A stretch of DNA of 38,198 nt from Desulfocapsaceae bacterium (GTDB lineage: Bacteria; Desulfobacterota; Desulfobulbia; Desulfobulbales; Desulfocapsaceae), in the NCBI GenBank assembly GCA_030653035.1, contig JAUSAB010000029.1, forward strand, positions 1-38,198, written 5' to 3'. The notes under the pieces were generated by a model, which was given only the letters and a program-made list of their open reading frames with translations, had not been told where the DNA came from and did no database searches. The position numbers and the translations under genes were made by a program. This document shows, one piece after another, positions 30,137 through 38,198 of the stretch (its first letter is position 1; every line of letters begins with the position of its first letter).

Positions 30137-30733
30137 TTATAATTTCTGATTCGTCATTTTTGTATAATATTTCCCATGGGCACAGCCCCGGCACAGCAGT
30201 TTGCCGTCCTGCTCAACATCGCGGCAATCCTGTACCCAGTCGCCGCAGGACTGGCACTGGATCCGCTTGAGAGGTCTTCCCGGCATATCCTGTTCAGGGA
30301 TGGTCACGCTCACTTCCTCAATAGTGAAGAGTTCGTCCTGAGGCATGATCCGGTAAGCATCGAGTTGGCGGGCGTATTTGTTTTCGATCTCCGGGCAATA
30401 TTTTTTCGAGAGCTCGCGCGATTCTTCCCGGGCGACGATCCGTACCGCCTTGCCGGTTTCCAGATTAACAAAGGTGGCGGCCATGATCCCGTAATCAACC
30501 CAGCGCATGGAGCGTTTGCCCAGGCTGCATCCGGTGACGGACTGGATGGCATCGGTGGCGCAGCGGTCAATCTCAACGAGGACGTAGAGCTTTTTGCGGT
30601 CCAGACCTTTGGGGTCTTGAATGCCGATGGCCTCCAGGCCGATCATCGACATCCGCACCCCGATCACCTGACCGGCGCAGATATGGCCATGAATCTTGGT
30701 TGATATCTCAAGTAACGTCTCAAATGACTCCAT
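30137..30733 (-). CDS. FmdE-family protein with C-terminal zinc ribbon
   Basis: The 198-residue protein carries the FmdE domain (formylmethanofuran dehydrogenase subunit E family): IHGHICAGQVIGVRM at about 14-28, with the conserved His-Gly-His-x-Cys, followed by EIDRCATDAIQSVTGCSLGKR. A C-terminal zinc ribbon has Cys160, Cys163, Cys181 and Cys184. In bacteria without methanofuran chemistry the family is found near molybdenum/tungsten enzymes and formate dehydrogenases; its role there is not established. It is divergent from the hdrA-mvhD-formate dehydrogenase cluster across 466 bases, which would suit a metal- or cofactor-related accessory role (inference). Confidence 0.9.
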   Translation of the reverse strand: MESFETLLEISTKIHGHICAGQVIGVRMSMIGLEAIGIQDPKGLDRKKLYVLVEIDRCATDAIQSVTGCSLGKRSMRWVDYGIMAATFVNLETGKAVRIVAREESRELSKKYCPEIENKYARQLDAYRIMPQDELFTIEEVSVTIPEQDMPGRPLKRIQCQSCGDWVQDCRDVEQDGKLLCRGCAHGKYYTKMTNQKL

Positions 30734-31199: not shown

Positions 31200-34100
31200 A
31201 TGCACGCTTCTATTTCCACTTCCTCCGCTTTAAAAGCGGTCGGTGCGGTTCTGGTGGTGGGTGGCGGGGTGGCCGGAGTCCAGGCCGCCCTCGATCTCAC
31301 CGAACTCGGCTTCAAGGTCTATCTGGTTGAAAAATCGGGCGCCATCGGCGGGGTCATGGCCCGGTTGGACAAAACCTTTCCCACCAACGACTGCTCGCTC
31401 TGTATCCTTGCCCCGAAGCTGGTGGAGGCGGGACGCGATCCCAATATCGAGATCCTGACCAAGTCGGAACTGCTCTCTTTAGACGGTATTCCCGGCAACT
31501 TTACCGCCAGGATCAGAAAAGAGCCCCGGTACATCGACGAGGAAGTCTGCACCGGCTGCGGCCAGTGTACCCTCTATTGCCTCAAGCAGATCGGCGATGA
31601 CTACAACGAGAACCTCGGGATCTCGAACGCCGCCCACATCGATTACGCCCAGGCCGTACCCACCAGCTATTATATCGATGCCAAGGCCTGCCTCATGCTC
31701 AATTACCAGACCTGCGGCCTCTGCGCCGTAGCCTGCCAGGCCAAGGCCATCCGTTTTGACCAGAAAGAAGAAATCCTTGATCTGGCCGTCGGTTCCGTTA
31801 TCCTGGCGCCAGGCCTGGGCCGAATCAGTAAAGAGGTTCTGGGTCGCTATGGCTGGGGCAAGTTCGCCGATGTCCTCAGCGCCTTCGAGCATGAACGGTT
31901 GATGTGCGCCTCCGGACCCACCAACGGGGCGATCCTTCGCCCCTCGGACCACAAACACCCGAAAAAAATTGCCTTTCTCCAGTGCATTGGCTCCCGTGAC
32001 CAGACCTGCGGCAACAACTACTGTTCCTCGGTCTGCTGCATGTACGCCATCAAGCAGGCAACCCTTGCTCGCGAGCATGATCCCAGCGCCGAGATCACCC
32101 TCTTTTACATGGATATCCGCACCCACGGCAAGGGCTTTGACGCCGCCCGTGAGCGGGCCACTGCCGAAAACAACTTCCGGGTGATCTACGCCCGGCCGCC
32201 CAAGGTGGAGGATGTCTTTGACGGCGGCCTGCTGCTTACCTGGGCCACCGAGGACGGTAAGCATCACTACGAGACATTCGATATGGTCGTCCTCTCCCAG
32301 GGGATTGAGTCGCCGGATGATGCCGAGCAGCTTGGGCAGGCAGCAGGCATCAATCTGAACAGCTATCTTTTTGCCCGGACGGACACCTACGCGCCGCTTG
32401 CCACCAGCCGCCCCGGCGTCTATGTAATCGGCGCCTTTCAGGGGCCAAAAGACATCCCGGATTCAGTCACCCAGGCCGGAGGCGCGGCGGCCCTCTGTTC
32501 CGGCCAGCTGGTTGCGGCCCGCGGCACGGAGATGACCAAGGCGGTCTTTCCCGAAGAACGCGACATCTCCAAGGAAGAACCCCGCATCGGCGTCTTTGTC
32601 TGCCATTGCGGTATCAATATCGCAGGCGTCGTCGATGTACGAGCGGTGCGCGATTACGCCCGGGATCTGCCCGGCGTGGTCTATTCCACCGACAACCTCT
32701 ATTCCTGTTCTCAGGACACCCAGCAGCATCTGGTCAACATCATCCGCGAACACCGGCTCAACCGAATTGTCGTCTCCGCCTGTACCCCCCGTACCCATGA
32801 ACCGCTCTTCCAGGCCACCCTGCGGGATGCGGGCCTCAACCGCGCCCTGTTTGAGATGGCCAATATCCGTGATCAATGTTCCTGGGTCCATATGCACGAG
32901 CCCGAAGCGGCCACCGCCAAGGCCAAGGATCTGGTGCGCATGGCCGTGGCCAAGGCGGCCCATCTCACCGCCCTGCCGGAACAGCGGCTGCCGGTAACTC
33001 CTGCGGCACTTGTCATCGGCGGCGGCCTGGCGGGCATGACTGCGGCCCTGACCATTGCCGAGCAGGGATTCCCGACGACCCTGGTCGAGCAGGGGGAGAC
33101 ATTGGGCGGATCGGCCCTGTTACTGACCGCTGACCGTTTCGGTCGCGATCCGCGTAAGGCCATAGCGGATCTGGCCCACAAGGTGAAAACCCATCCCCAA
33201 ATCAGTGTGCGCACTCAGGCCACGGTGGCCAGTGTCTCCGGCTATGTGGGTAACTTCACCACCACAGTCGCCACAACAACCGCCGAAAAGGCGGGCACTG
33301 AAGTAATCAATCACGGGGTCATGGTGATCGCCACCGGTGGCAGGCCCTATACGCCGAAACAATATCTGCACGGCGAGTCTGAGCGGGTGCTGACCCAGCT
33401 GGAACTGGAAGCCCGGCTGGCCTCCGGTCGCCCGCTCTCTGCCAAGATGAAACAGGTGGTGATGATTCAGTGTGTCGGCTCGCGCGGCGCGGATCTGGCC
33501 TATTGCAGCCGGGTCTGCTGCGGTCAGGCGTTGAAGAACGCCCTGCGTCTCAAGGCCATGACCCCCGAGCTGACCATCTTCATCTATTACCGCGACATGC
33601 GGGCCTACGGCTTCCTGGAGGATGATTACCTCAAGGCCCGTGAGCTGGGCGTGATCTTCATCCGCTATACCCCGGAGAATCCGCCGAGAGTCGCCCCAGG
33701 GCGCAGTAAGTCGAGCCCGCTGAAGGTGGTGGGCTATGATCTGCTCATGGGAGAAGAGATGGAGCTCGATACCGATCTGCTGGTGCTGTCAGTGGGCATT
33801 GTCCCGGAAGATCCCTCGATCTTATCAAGGATGCTCAAGGTGCCGGTGACCGCCGACAAGTTTTATCTGGAGGCCCACGTCAAACTGCGGCCGGTGGATA
33901 TGGCGGTGGACGGGATCTTTGTCTGCGGCCTGGCCCATGCCCCCAAATCGATGGACGAGACCATTGCCCAGGCCCAGGCCGCAGCCGGTCGGGCATGCCA
34001 GCCACTGGCCAAGGGCTCGATTTCACCCGAGCCCATTGTCTCCCATGTCGATGCCGAACTGTGTATCGGTTGCGGCGCCTGCGAGACCTTCTGCCCGTAT

Positions 34101-34280
34101 AAGGCCATCACCATTGACAAAGAGGTCAAGCCCCGCAAGGCTCGAACCCTGACCGCCTCCTGCAAGGGATGCGGCGTCTGCGCAGCCCGTTGTCCGACCA
34201 TGGCCATTGACATGGGGCGCTTTACCTTGGAAGGTATTCGGGCGCAGATCGCGGCCTTTGGCTCTGAAACAGGTGTTTAG
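31200..34280 (+). CDS. hdrA: Double-module HdrA (heterodisulfide reductase subunit A-like)
   Basis: The ATG at 31200 follows GGAGAAGCT; an earlier start at 31122 is less likely. The 1026-residue protein is much longer than usual HdrA (about 650). The N-terminal module has an FAD-binding GGGVAG (21-26), the HdrA cysteines in NDCSLCIL (Cys65, Cys68), [4Fe-4S] sites Cys117/120/123/127 and Cys164/172/175/179, and LQCIGSRDQ...CSSVCCMYA. After a linker, a second module repeats these elements: ICHCGINI-type VCHCGINIAGVV, VIGGGLAGMTAAL near 605, IQCVGSR...CSRVCC, and two ferredoxin sites near 954 and 987. HdrA houses the bifurcating flavin. Its location before mvhD and a formate dehydrogenase supports electron bi- or confurcation. 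Confidence 0.93.
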   Translation: MHASISTSSALKAVGAVLVVGGGVAGVQAALDLTELGFKVYLVEKSGAIGGVMARLDKTFPTNDCSLCILAPKLVEAGRDPNIEILTKSELLSLDGIPGNFTARIRKEPRYIDEEVCTGCGQCTLYCLKQIGDDYNENLGISNAAHIDYAQAVPTSYYIDAKACLMLNYQTCGLCAVACQAKAIRFDQKEEILDLAVGSVILAPGLGRISKEVLGRYGWGKFADVLSAFEHERLMCASGPTNGAILRPSDHKHPKKIAFLQCIGSRDQTCGNNYCSSVCCMYAIKQATLAREHDPSAEITLFYMDIRTHGKGFDAARERATAENNFRVIYARPPKVEDVFDGGLLLTWATEDGKHHYETFDMVVLSQGIESPDDAEQLGQAAGINLNSYLFARTDTYAPLATSRPGVYVIGAFQGPKDIPDSVTQAGGAAALCSGQLVAARGTEMTKAVFPEERDISKEEPRIGVFVCHCGINIAGVVDVRAVRDYARDLPGVVYSTDNLYSCSQDTQQHLVNIIREHRLNRIVVSACTPRTHEPLFQATLRDAGLNRALFEMANIRDQCSWVHMHEPEAATAKAKDLVRMAVAKAAHLTALPEQRLPVTPAALVIGGGLAGMTAALTIAEQGFPTTLVEQGETLGGSALLLTADRFGRDPRKAIADLAHKVKTHPQISVRTQATVASVSGYVGNFTTTVATTTAEKAGTEVINHGVMVIATGGRPYTPKQYLHGESERVLTQLELEARLASGRPLSAKMKQVVMIQCVGSRGADLAYCSRVCCGQALKNALRLKAMTPELTIFIYYRDMRAYGFLEDDYLKARELGVIFIRYTPENPPRVAPGRSKSSPLKVVGYDLLMGEEMELDTDLLVLSVGIVPEDPSILSRMLKVPVTADKFYLEAHVKLRPVDMAVDGIFVCGLAHAPKSMDETIAQAQAAAGRACQPLAKGSISPEPIVSHVDAELCIGCGACETFCPYKAITIDKEVKPRKARTLTASCKGCGVCAARCPTMAIDMGRFTLEGIRAQIAAFGSETGV

Positions 34281-34315
34281 ACTGAAGGCCGAAGACTGAA
34301 GAACAAAGAACGAAA

Positions 34316-34416
34316 GACTGGAACCCCGTACTGGTGTGCGGCGCGGGCTTCAAACCCGTGATGCCTCCGTCTGATACGCGGATGAGTTGTGGGTTCGATT
34401 CCCACTCCAGTCTCCA
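34316..34416 (+). tRNA. selC: tRNA-Sec (anticodon TCA) candidate, selC
   Basis: The features expected of bacterial tRNA-Sec are present. A 6-bp D stem (CCGTAC/GTGCGG) closes a 4-base TGGT loop. The anticodon loop is CTTCAAA, with anticodon TCA and a 5-bp stem GCGGG/CCCGT. There is a long extra arm (TCCG/CGGA) and a T arm GTGGG-TTCGATT-CCCAC. The acceptor pairs GACTGGA with TCCAGTC, followed by T and an encoded CCA. An additional A-T pair at 34315/34413 would give the 8-bp acceptor usual for Sec tRNAs but would leave no discriminator base, so the end is atypical. It lies between hdrA and mvhD on the same strand. Confidence 0.78.
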
Positions 34417-34477
34417 TTGTTTATAAAAAATTACAACGAATTCTCGGGATGAGAATATTTCCGTATTGGAGCATAAC

Positions 34478-35086
34478 ATGTCAGATTATCAACCAAAAAT
34501 TCTTGGCTTCCTCTGCAACTGGTGCTGCTACACCGCTGCCGATTCAGCAGGCGTGGGCCGCTACCAGTACCCGCCGAATCTGCGGGTCATCCGCATGATG
34601 TGCTCAGGTCGCCTCGACCCCTCCTTTCCCCTGGAAGGACTGGCCCAGGGAGCGGATGCCATTTTTGTCGGCGGCTGTCATCCGGGTGAATGCCACTATC
34701 AGGACGGAAACTACCACGCCCTGGTCACCGCCGCCCTGGTGCATGAGACCCTGGCCAGGCTCGGCGTAAACAGTCAGAGGTTCCTTATTGACTGGGCCTC
34801 AGCCGCGGAGGGTCCGAACTTTGTCAAGATCATCACCCGGTTCACGGAACAGGCTGCAATTCTGGGCCCGCTTGGGACAAGCGAAGGCATCGATGCAACA
34901 CTGCTGCGTGAGAAGTTAGCGCAGGCGGCGGAAACGGCCAAAGACCGCAAGCTCAGAATGAACTTGATCAGCGCCTCTAAAGAGATGATGAAGAACGGGG
35001 ATTTCTCGCGCTCAACCATTGCCGGACTGGTCCATGACAAGTGCGACAAAATCTTGACCGAGTTGATAGGGGCATCGGTTCCATGA
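34478..35086 (+). CDS. mvhD: MvhD-like [2Fe-2S] electron carrier subunit
   Basis: The ATG at 34478 follows a GGAG site; a TTG at 34466 is not needed. A small hairpin (ATTCTC/GAGAAT, 34440-34456) lies in the leader. The N-terminal half of the 202-residue protein is MvhD: CNWCCYTAADSAGVGR with Cys13, Cys16 and Cys17, MMCSGR (Cys42), and GGCHPGECHYQDGN (Cys67, Cys72). The C-terminal half is an extra helical extension. MvhD links hydrogenase or formate dehydrogenase to HdrA and carries a [2Fe-2S] cluster. Some homologues use Sec at a cysteine position; here all are Cys. Its TGA overlaps the next start (ATGA), indicating coupled translation with the dehydrogenase. Confidence 0.93.
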   Translation: MSDYQPKILGFLCNWCCYTAADSAGVGRYQYPPNLRVIRMMCSGRLDPSFPLEGLAQGADAIFVGGCHPGECHYQDGNYHALVTAALVHETLARLGVNSQRFLIDWASAAEGPNFVKIITRFTEQAAILGPLGTSEGIDATLLREKLAQAAETAKDRKLRMNLISASKEMMKNGDFSRSTIAGLVHDKCDKILTELIGASVP

Positions 35087-38000
35087 GCAGCAGCAAGATA
35101 TCCTTGAACATCAATGGACAACCGGTGACTGTCCCTGCGGCCACCACTATCATGGAGGCCGCACGCCAGTCGGGAATCGAGATTCCGCACCTCTGCCACC
35201 TTCCCGGCAAGGCCGACGCCAAACGCCCTTGTCTCCTGTGTCTGGTGGAGGCGGATGGCAAACAGCTCCGTTCCTGCCGGACCCCGGTTCGGGAAGGAAT
35301 GGTTGTCGAGACTGCCAGCCCGGCGTTAAAAAAACACCGGACTGAACGGCTGCAGCAGCTTGACGCTGTCCATTACGGTGACTGCAAGGCCCCGTGTAAC
35401 CTCACCTGCCCCGGTGGGATCAATGTGCAGGGCTATGTCAACCTCATCGGCCAAGGCCAGTATGAGGCCGCGCTGCGCCTGATCAAGGAAAAAAATCCCC
35501 TGCCGGGCATAGTTTGCCGGGTCTGCCCCCGTTTCTGCGAGACCCGCTGCCGCCGGGTGCTGATCGATGAACCGGTGGCCATCAACCATCTTAAGCGATT
35601 TCTGGTGGAGCATGCCAATAAACACGGACTATTAGTCGATAAACCTAAACAGGCTACCGGCCATAATGTGGCCATTATCGGTGGCGGACCGGCCGGATTA
35701 TCTGCGGCCTATTCTCTGCGCAAGCAGGGACACAGTGTCACCCTTTTTGAGGCGGCTGCGGAATTAGGCGGATTGACCCGTTATGCCATTCCCGCCTTCA
35801 AACTCCCCAGAAAAGTGCTTCGCCGCGAAATAGACAATATCCTGGCCATGGGCGTTCACGTTCGCACCGGCAAAAAATGGGGCCGGGATTTCGTGCTCCG
35901 TGATCTTCAAGATCAAGGGTTCAGGGCAATTTTTATCGCCATTGGCATGGGTCGGCAAAAAACGCAAGCCGCGCCCGGAGGCGAAGCCGCGCTCGATGGC
36001 CTCCAATTTCTTGAACAAGTGGCGACTGATACCCTGCATGAGTTGCCCGGCAAAATTTTAATTATTGGCGGCAGCAAGGTCGCAATAGAAACGGCGCGGT
36101 GCGCAGTCCGTCTTGGCGCCGCCGAGGTTACCGTCATCCATGATCGTTCACGAACGGAAATGGCCGCCCACCAGCGGGATATCATTGAGGCGGAAAAGGA
36201 AGGAGTGAAGTTTTTCCTGATGGCCGCTCCTCTTGCCATCCACAAAAAAGCTGACGCGGGCTTCGATGTTGAGATGGCCAGGACCGTGCTTTCCGAACCC
36301 AACGGCGCAGGAAGCCGCAGGCCGGTTCCAGTTGCCGGCTCCAGTCTGACCTGGAGTGGGGAGACCGTCATCAACGCCCTGGGCCAGGAGGCGGACGGAG
36401 GGTTCCATAATTATGGGGAACTGGAAGCGGAACTTATACTCACGCCCAGACAGACGATCAAGTCCGATCCCACCACCATGCAGACCAACTTGCCGGGGAT
36501 CTACGCCGGTGGCGAGGTTGTCAGCGGGCCGCGTTCAGTGATTCAAGCCGTGGATGCCGGACGGCGGGCGGCGGAAACGATTCACCAACAATTGGGAGGT
36601 GTTGATGATCGACCAGATGATGGTCGTTTCAACTTCAGTAAGGGCAAAAAGTTTGAAGAAGTGGATATGCGCAACTTTAACGGCTTTCCGATCCATCTGA
36701 GCGAGCAGATGCCGGTTCGGCCACCAGAGCGGCGCATTGGCGATTTTGCTGAGGTGGAACTGGGCTTTACCGAAGAGATGGCGGTGCGGGAGGCTAAACG
36801 CTGTCTGGCCTGCGGTTGCCTGGGTCTGGCCAAGTGCGAGCTGCGTCCGCTCTGTGGTGAGCACAAAATAAAGAGTTCAAGTGCCCCGGAAAAACGGATC
36901 CATGCCCCTGATGATTTGCATCGTTTCATCGCCATTGATCCGAACCGCTGCGTTGTCTGTCAACATTGTGAGCGCGTTTGTGAATTTGAGGCCATTTCCG
37001 TTTCCTGCGAGGAAGAGAACGGGCAAGAGAATGGAAAGCCGGCCAATATTCAGCTTGTCATTGGAGATACCTGCGTCTCCTGCGGGGCCTGCGTCGATGC
37101 CTGTCCCACCGGGGCCCTGACCAAAAAGCAGCTCTTTTTGCCCCTTCTCCCCGGCGAGGCCGAGGAGGTACAGAGCGTCTGCACCTACTGCGGCACCGGC
37201 TGTACTGTAAATCTTCAGGTCAAACAGGATGTGCTTCTTGAGGTCAAGGCCCGGCACGAGGCCCCGCCGAACCATGGTGATCTCTGCGTCAAGGGCCGAT
37301 TCGGTTTTGACTTTTATCGACATCCCGAGCGGTTGACCCATCCCCTGATTCGAGAGCGGCTTGATGAACCGCTCCGCCGTGCCACCTGGGAAGAGGCACT
37401 TGATTTTGCTGCCCACCGTTTCGCCCATATCCATGAATATCACGGCCCCGAAGCCCTTGGCGTCCTGTCTTCCTCCCGCTGTGAGAACGAGGTTAACTAT
37501 CTGGCCCAGAAATTCTGTCGGTTGGTTTTGAAAAACAACTCGGTGGACAACTGCGCTCGAGTCTGTCACGCACCCTCAGTCAGCGGCCTGCACATTGCCT
37601 TGGGCAGCGGGGCGGCCACCAATTCGCTGGCCGATATCGAAGGGGCCGAGGTTATTCTGATCTGCGGCTCCAACACCAGCGAGGCCCATCCGGTGGTGGG
37701 CATGAAGGTGCGGCGGGCCGTGCGCAATGGCGCCCAGCTTATCGTCATCGATCCCCGGCGCACCGAGATGGCGGCCATGGCCGATCTCTGGCTGCGGCTG
37801 GTGCCGGGCACCAACGTTCTGCTCCTGAACTCGCTGCTCCACGCCATTCTTGATGAAGGACTGGAAGACAGGGAGTTTATTGCCGCGCGGACCGAAAACC
37901 TGGAGGCGGTGCGGCAGCATGTGGGCGCTTATAGCCCGGAGACCATGGCGGAATTGACAGGAGTTGCCCCTGATCTGGTACGGGCTGCGGCCCGCCTCTA

Positions 38001-38198
38001 CTGCTCTACCCGCAAAGGTATGATCCTTTATGGCCTGGGGGTCACCGAACACCGTAACGGTACTCAGGGCGTCATGGGGCTGGCCAATATCGCGCTTGCC
38101 TCCGGCAATGTCGGCCGCCCTCATGCCGGTATTTGTCCTCTGCGGGGTCAGAATAATGTCCAGGGTTCCTGTGATATGGGGGCTCTGCCCTATGTGCT
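35083..38198 (+). CDS. fdhA: Formate dehydrogenase alpha subunit fused to 2Fe-2S and GltD-like modules (C-terminus off window)
   Basis: The frame is open from the ATG (ATGA overlap with mvhD) to the window end, giving 1038 visible residues. In order: a plant-type 2Fe-2S domain (Cys38, Cys50, Cys53, Cys66); a GltD N-terminal iron-sulfur region (GDCKAPCNLTC, CRVCPRFCETRC); an FAD/NAD(P) oxidoreductase module with GGGPAGLSAA near 196 and IIGGSKVAIETA near 325; two ferredoxin sites near 622 and 664; CTYCGTGC near 700; and the molybdopterin domain. The catalytic position is Cys828 (NCARVCHAPSVSG), where many relatives have Sec. It probably oxidises formate or reduces CO2 and exchanges electrons with NAD(P) and, through MvhD, with HdrA. 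The cofactor side of the last part is cut. Confidence 0.93.
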   Translation, partial: MSSSKISLNINGQPVTVPAATTIMEAARQSGIEIPHLCHLPGKADAKRPCLLCLVEADGKQLRSCRTPVREGMVVETASPALKKHRTERLQQLDAVHYGDCKAPCNLTCPGGINVQGYVNLIGQGQYEAALRLIKEKNPLPGIVCRVCPRFCETRCRRVLIDEPVAINHLKRFLVEHANKHGLLVDKPKQATGHNVAIIGGGPAGLSAAYSLRKQGHSVTLFEAAAELGGLTRYAIPAFKLPRKVLRREIDNILAMGVHVRTGKKWGRDFVLRDLQDQGFRAIFIAIGMGRQKTQAAPGGEAALDGLQFLEQVATDTLHELPGKILIIGGSKVAIETARCAVRLGAAEVTVIHDRSRTEMAAHQRDIIEAEKEGVKFFLMAAPLAIHKKADAGFDVEMARTVLSEPNGAGSRRPVPVAGSSLTWSGETVINALGQEADGGFHNYGELEAELILTPRQTIKSDPTTMQTNLPGIYAGGEVVSGPRSVIQAVDAGRRAAETIHQQLGGVDDRPDDGRFNFSKGKKFEEVDMRNFNGFPIHLSEQMPVRPPERRIGDFAEVELGFTEEMAVREAKRCLACGCLGLAKCELRPLCGEHKIKSSSAPEKRIHAPDDLHRFIAIDPNRCVVCQHCERVCEFEAISVSCEEENGQENGKPANIQLVIGDTCVSCGACVDACPTGALTKKQLFLPLLPGEAEEVQSVCTYCGTGCTVNLQVKQDVLLEVKARHEAPPNHGDLCVKGRFGFDFYRHPERLTHPLIRERLDEPLRRATWEEALDFAAHRFAHIHEYHGPEALGVLSSSRCENEVNYLAQKFCRLVLKNNSVDNCARVCHAPSVSGLHIALGSGAATNSLADIEGAEVILICGSNTSEAHPVVGMKVRRAVRNGAQLIVIDPRRTEMAAMADLWLRLVPGTNVLLLNSLLHAILDEGLEDREFIAARTENLEAVRQHVGAYSPETMAELTGVAPDLVRAAARLYCSTRKGMILYGLGVTEHRNGTQGVMGLANIALASGNVGRPHAGICPLRGQNNVQGSCDMGALPYV

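Follow-up and report, generated by a model that had tools for sequence, protein, structure and literature searches.

The window considered here, a stretch of 38,198 nt that makes up the entire contig C55 (JAUSAB010000029.1) in the 3.41-Mb draft genome of a Desulfocapsaceae bacterium (GCA_030653035.1), ends in an operon for an HdrA protein, a transfer RNA (tRNA), an MvhD protein, and a formate dehydrogenase (FDH) fused to other redox modules. Judged from sequence comparison, this operon is the all-cysteine (Cys) counterpart of a set of three selenoproteins found in the same genome, and the tRNA resembles the published selC* class of tRNA-Cys (also called tRNA-ReC). The operon is probably the selenium-independent twin of an FDH that carries out flavin-based electron bifurcation or confurcation, and it has its own tRNA for Cys at UGA. 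An earlier note on this DNA placed hdrA, mvhD, and an FDH of more than 1038 residues in that order, the last two genes overlapping by ATGA; this observation is confirmed here, with all three genes on the + strand. The note overlooked the tRNA gene, an Rfam match lying between hdrA and mvhD.

Relatives have a selenocysteine (Sec) form of each of these three proteins, with about 47, 56, and 49% identity to those of the window and with the genes in the order FDH-HdrA-MvhD. The in-frame TGA codons of this Sec set correspond to window Cys residues at FDH 828, HdrA 68, and MvhD 66. The set is complete in 13 loci; in the window's own genome it is fragmented, the pieces lying at contig ends (C8, C86, and C46). 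The earlier note missed the all-Cys status of the operon, which is evident from the TGA at the matching sites of both the complete loci and these fragments. A hairpin resembling a Sec insertion sequence (SECIS) follows the TGA in 13/13 HdrA, 13/13 MvhD, and 4/13 FDH genes of the Sec set, and the same hairpin follows the Cys codon in 0/13, 0/11, and 0/8 of the Cys versions, respectively, by a rule (a GGT or AGT loop plus at least 5 pairs) that was fixed after hairpins had been viewed. Of the three FDH hairpins listed, two have 4 pairs. The two groups could not be told apart by folding energy 3' of the Sec/Cys codon.

The Sec and Cys sets also differ in their surroundings and, for HdrA, in their descent. 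Genes for CO dehydrogenase/acetyl-CoA synthase, named by NCBIfam on the copy in the window's own genome, adjoin 17 of the 18 Sec FDH loci versus none of the 16 Cys loci, the window included; these 16 represent at most 15 different places (L043 and L054 appear to be one contig of 77979 bases, G004:C158), and L042 stands outside that count. In a tree of HdrA, the Cys and Sec forms split with support of 100/99. In the FDH tree, in which three outgroup rows are less than half filled, the Cys rows group with one Sec row, L050, whose position among them is not settled, so a single origin of the Cys FDH does not follow from this tree.

The tRNA gene matches the Rfam tRNA-Sec model RF01852 at 62.3 bits (cut-off 47); ARAGORN reported no tRNA in the window. 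An Rfam match to isrK in the window (21.6 bits against a cut-off of 50) was taken as chance. The genome also contains a canonical selC, on contig C35 (68.3 bits), which has G at the discriminator position (G73), in contrast to U73 in the window tRNA. Across the 15 aligned genes of the window type U73 is invariant, and five relatives have the Cys anticodon GCA in place of the UCA of the window. The consensus fold shows compensatory change at 12 of its 25 predicted pairs. It has a 6-pair acceptor and a 5-pair T stem, and by eye a seventh acceptor pair is possible in the window tRNA. A review describes selC* tRNA-Cys as tRNA-Sec-like, with U73 and a GCA or UCA anticodon, draws it with an 8/4 acceptor/T geometry and a bulged A51a, names G73 as an identity base for seryl-tRNA synthetase (SerRS), and places selB*/cysS* genes downstream in some delta-proteobacterial subgroups but not class-wide (PMC7609411). 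According to a second review, tRNAs of this class insert Cys at the UGA codons for Sec (PMC11415595), and a third reports a role in selenium scarcity as posited (PMC9437257).

The linkage of this tRNA to hdr and mvhD genes extends through the family. A search of 60 genomes of the window's family at the RF01852 cut-off gave higher-scoring matches, classed as canonical by score and length (21 sequences were checked, and all 21 have G before CCA), and 14 lower-scoring ones. Three of the latter (G048:C120 35885, G004:C114, and G052:C48, at 47.2-47.6 bits) appeared by eye to be other tRNAs and were dropped, leaving 11, of which ten are intact and one is degenerate. Each has hdrA, an HmcF/TmcB-like gene, or mvhD as a neighbor on its own strand, the nearest match being 27-111 nt away. 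By comparison, none of the 21 canonical selC genes has any queried gene within 6 kb, a control drawn from the window's family only and in which some flanks are short (628 bases upstream in G031). Because loci L042 to L047 were picked for the similarity of their FDH, they are no independent cases of linkage; the 16/16 linked loci include them, and the evidence counted here is limited to the 11 from the tRNA search. Since the position of the tRNA within the cluster varies, the linkage appears to be one of function rather than of one fixed junction. Within the genus, the tRNA is present in 5 of 8 sampled genomes (G000, which is the window's own, G004, G021, G054, and G058), and G004 has two Cys hdrA-tRNA-mvhD loci, on C158 (L054) and C62 (L081).

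Several other genes and contigs were noted in the course of these searches. Locus L042 (NZ_JAUSAR010000213.1) is labelled Aquabacterium, and its proteins are 93-95% identical to those of the window; it is probably a mis-binned contig. Near the tRNA of several loci is a gene for a small protein with a Cys-rich tail (L043 13114-13596, L075 9223-9609, and L073 9214-9594), assigned to the IscA/HesB family by NF038090, as checked in L043 and L073; the gene after it in L043 is arsenite-methyltransferase-like and likewise has a Cys-rich end. A second gene resembling cysteinyl-tRNA synthetase (CysRS), with a frame of about 710-800 aa, is over the cut-off in 12 of the 15 family genomes searched, including the window's own (G000:C14 7703-9085) and also G043 and G044, both of which are without a tRNA in the hdrA-mvhD gap.

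A similar arrangement recurs in another family, where G088 carries a Cys hdrA-mvhD-FDH cluster followed by a U73 tRNA and then by a second selB, and elsewhere in that genome a fusion FDH and an MvhD have TGA at the matching sites. In G148, also from outside the family, the tRNA is again linked to hdr/mvhD-type genes, and selB is near the U73 tRNA in G088, G133, and G166. The wider search covered 30 loci, the window and 29 others, with weaker matches excluded, and yielded 16 U73 genes outside the family. Thirteen of these 16 lie within 3 kb of selB, selD, yedE/yedF, DUF3343-like, Hdr/MvhD, or FDH genes versus 0/21 for the canonical tRNA; the YedE, YedF, SelD, DUF3343-like, and NiFe hydrogenase queries came from the outside loci themselves, so self-matches are included, and the control used the same queries. 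The names of neighbors at these loci were checked in part by NCBIfam, and DUF3343-like is the presumed label for one of them. G307 has no more than a weak FDH match (1.3e-12), and in G117, G340, and G192 none of the queried genes was found within 3 kb of the U73 tRNA.

Table 1. Features of the operon at the end of the window
Feature	Position	Strand	Remarks
hdrA, two-FAD form	31200-34280	+	Cys68, codon TGT 31401-31403, where relatives have Sec
tRNA gene, tRNA-Sec-like	34316-34413	+	anticodon UCA 34350-34352; discriminator U73 34413; encoded CCA 34414-34416
mvhD (FlpD family)	34478-35086	+	Cys codon TGT 34676-34678, where relatives have Sec
fused FDH	35083-38198, open at contig end	+	Cys828, TGT 37564-37566, where relatives have Sec

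The layout of the operon is given in Table 1. The mvhD and FDH genes share the ATGA at 35083-35086, and the contig terminates at 38198, leaving 1038 residues of the FDH visible and its 3' end beyond the contig; complete relatives have stop-to-stop frames of 1372-1385 aa. The visible chain consists of Fer2_4 (4-79), Fer4_20 (100-182), Pyr_redox_2 (195-493), a 4Fe-4S dicluster domain (about 622-678), Molybdop_Fe4S4 (695-744), and Molybdopterin from 750, while the models PRK12814 and Fdh-alpha cover 5-635 and 699-1036, respectively. This domain search bears out the earlier description of NuoG-like, GltD-like, ferredoxin, and FDH parts in one chain. Across 12 aligned relatives, 27 Cys columns are invariant. 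The active-site region is kept: a Cys-His motif, the K of CVKG, and the R of PLRGQNN, all presumably catalytic, have counterparts at the aligned sites of E. coli FdhF and further FDHs. The fusion is, however, already known in kind and not new, contrary to its earlier description as unusual; StnC-type chains match nearly the whole visible FDH (9bov_A, E 2.6e-167; 8oh5_C, E 3.1e-163), and in Desulfurivibrio dismutans an FDH fusion that adjoins HdrA and MvhD has been described (PMC12142623). HdrA matches methanogen HdrA in a rearranged order, with 459-613 corresponding to the N-terminus of the latter, 16-345 to its region that binds flavin adenine dinucleotide (FAD), and 841-1017 to its C-terminal part. 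MvhD is an ordinary FlpD-family protein.

By its predicted domains, the layout fits a device in which one chain joins formate, NAD(P), and a low-potential carrier. This much of the earlier proposal of an NAD(P)/formate/HdrA device stands, given the one-chain domains, the HdrA and MvhD neighbors, the aligned FDH active-site region, and the lack of any visible HdrBC; what that proposal left out is the all-Cys counterpart status and the tRNA. The earlier note saw no HdrB or HdrC gene in the visible part. No hdrB or hdrC is evident by eye downstream in the open reading frame lists of L043-L047, with no HdrB query run, and the window's own contig stops inside the FDH gene. In the 11 window-type loci, a query for HmcF/TmcB-like (HdrD-like) proteins gave no match up to a distance of 6 kb; two of these loci, the window and L042, have less than 5 kb downstream.

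Assembly breaks interrupt both fused FDH genes of this genome. The Cys gene is cut at 38198; the Sec gene is cut at the C8 and C86 contig ends, where the Sec FDH matches (G000:C8 1-2520 and G000:C86 1-1705) overlap around the active-site TGA. Upstream of hdrA is a divergent gene for a 198-aa protein (30137-30733, - strand) that is FmdE-like by eye and has no NCBIfam match at 1e-5; a similar gene is also found upstream in G058. A scan for promoters and terminators gave nothing informative.

The genes, the tRNA, the three Sec/Cys positions, and the linkage are established by these comparisons; the reaction and its direction can be proposed from them. Formate or CO2 would react at the Mo/W site, and the iron-sulfur (Fe-S) clusters of the same chain would connect this site to the GltD-like FAD, which would handle NAD(P)H. 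MvhD would connect the FDH chain to HdrA, whose FAD would split electrons or merge them with those of ferredoxin. NAD(P) may serve as the higher-potential partner, a role assigned to it because no HdrBC is seen. The location of the Sec genes in the CO dehydrogenase/acetyl-CoA synthase cluster suggests reduction of CO2 to formate for the Wood-Ljungdahl pathway. Under selenium shortage, the operon would provide Cys forms of FDH, HdrA, and MvhD. Its tRNA would be charged with Cys and delivered by SelB to the UGA codons of other selenoproteins, so that Cys would be inserted there; charging, delivery, and control by selenium are all part of what is inferred. In its fullest form, the proposal is that one transcript does two jobs, supplying a three-protein Cys FDH together with a tRNA by which UGA is read as Cys instead of Sec in the rest of the selenoproteome, such that CO2 fixation via formate survives the lack of selenium. 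This extension is possible, although on balance doubtful.

A number of observations weigh against the selenium-independent twin with its own recoding tRNA. G043 and G044 have a Cys hdrA-mvhD pair with no tRNA in the gap, G023 has a degenerate copy of the tRNA, and at the FDH-less locus G004:C62 the tRNA is degenerate as well (47.6 bits, no clean U73 end). The Cys hdrA of G058 looks broken, being split by a TAG into two frames (L076 8148-11193, G058:C4), although the tRNA and mvhD look intact, and in G021, G054, G058, and others the Cys hdrA-tRNA-mvhD genes occur without an adjacent Cys FDH. The consensus stems of 6/5 rather than the published 8/4 mean that delivery by SelB is not assured, and UCA is not the usual anticodon for CysRS. 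Finally, no selB or cysS is present in the window cluster, and only one SelB, on C13, is over the cut-off in the window's own genome.

Other readings of the operon can be weighed against the same facts. The Cys operon might be a second formate enzyme with a constant job of its own, such as formate oxidation, the tRNA being simply co-transcribed and selenium irrelevant. The CO dehydrogenase/acetyl-CoA synthase genes, found beside 17/18 Sec FDH loci and 0/16 Cys loci, suggest that the physiological roles may differ; the separate and old clades of Cys and Sec HdrA and the occurrence of the Cys hdrA-mvhD pair without the tRNA in some genomes also speak for this reading. However, this reading leaves aside the presence of Cys at all three Sec positions and the linkage of the tRNA in 11/11 family cases and again in G088 and G148, and it is rather unlikely. 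The tRNA might instead be a working minor tRNA-Sec with an altered discriminator, charged with Ser, converted to Sec, and serving to boost selenoprotein synthesis. It has a UCA anticodon and a tRNA-Sec-like body, and a Pelotomaculum UCA variant reportedly permits some Sec insertion. Against this improbable role are the five relatives with GCA and the fact that the linked proteins are Cys forms; moreover, U73 is found in 15/15 aligned genes, whereas G73 is an identity base for SerRS (PMC7609411).

A tRNA-like gene with no role in translation, whether a relic or a signal for processing the transcript, would account for the degenerate copies in G023 and G004:C62 and for the lack of any copy in the hdrA-mvhD gap of G043 and G044. 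This is very improbable, since two-sided changes preserve pairing at 12/25 pairs, the CCA is encoded in the window, and the tRNA recurs in other families at other positions relative to the genes.

One of the closest known systems is that of D. dismutans AMeS2, with a fused FdhAB (RS08735), HdrA/HdrL (RS08730), and MvhD (RS08725), and with a proposed reduction of CO2 to formate (PMC12142623). As in the window, the FDH is a fusion that includes NAD(P)H/FAD and ferredoxin domains, and its neighbors are a two-FAD HdrA and MvhD. Compared by its published gene layout alone, the AMeS2 cluster is beside Wood-Ljungdahl genes, as are the Sec loci here, whereas the window copy is away from them, has another gene order, is Cys-only as far as visible, and contains the tRNA. 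The single chain of NuoG-like, GltD-like, ferredoxin, and FDH-like parts is also that of StnC, which with its partner StnAB forms the Stn transhydrogenase of Sporomusa (8oh5) and whose FDH domain is reported to be inactive (PMC10482914). Unlike StnC as described there, the window FDH has kept its active-site region, and its neighbors are hdrA, the tRNA, and mvhD. The methanogen HdrABC-FdhAB-FlpD/MvhD complex (7bkb) has matches to the window HdrA, MvhD, and FDH catalytic chain; it differs in that the window has no HdrBC in sight, an FDH fused to a GltD-like module, and an extra FAD module in HdrA.

The tRNA has several features of selC* tRNA-Cys, being tRNA-Sec-like, with U73 and UCA (GCA in relatives), in a genome that also has a canonical tRNA-Sec. 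It departs from the published description in having no adjacent selB*/cysS*, in its place inside an hdrA-mvhD-FDH operon, and in its 6/5 rather than 8/4 consensus stems. Within the literature available, from which the primary tRNA papers were absent, so that prior notice is possible, no account was found of an all-Cys twin operon with an inner selC*-like tRNA. An operon that combines three Cys counterparts with a selC*-type tRNA, along with the parallel in G088, provides independent genomic support for the role posited for such tRNAs in selenium scarcity. Paired Sec and Cys isoenzymes are known from methanogens as Vhu and Vhc, and replacement under selenium limitation has been suggested for Desulfobacterium autotrophicum (PMC2702500). 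The window resembles Vhu/Vhc in that related redox enzymes come in a Sec and a Cys version, and it differs in that the set comprises three proteins and that its Cys version includes a selC*-like tRNA. If the proposed role is correct, the genome would maintain two gene sets, one Sec and one Cys, for a whole electron-bifurcating complex.

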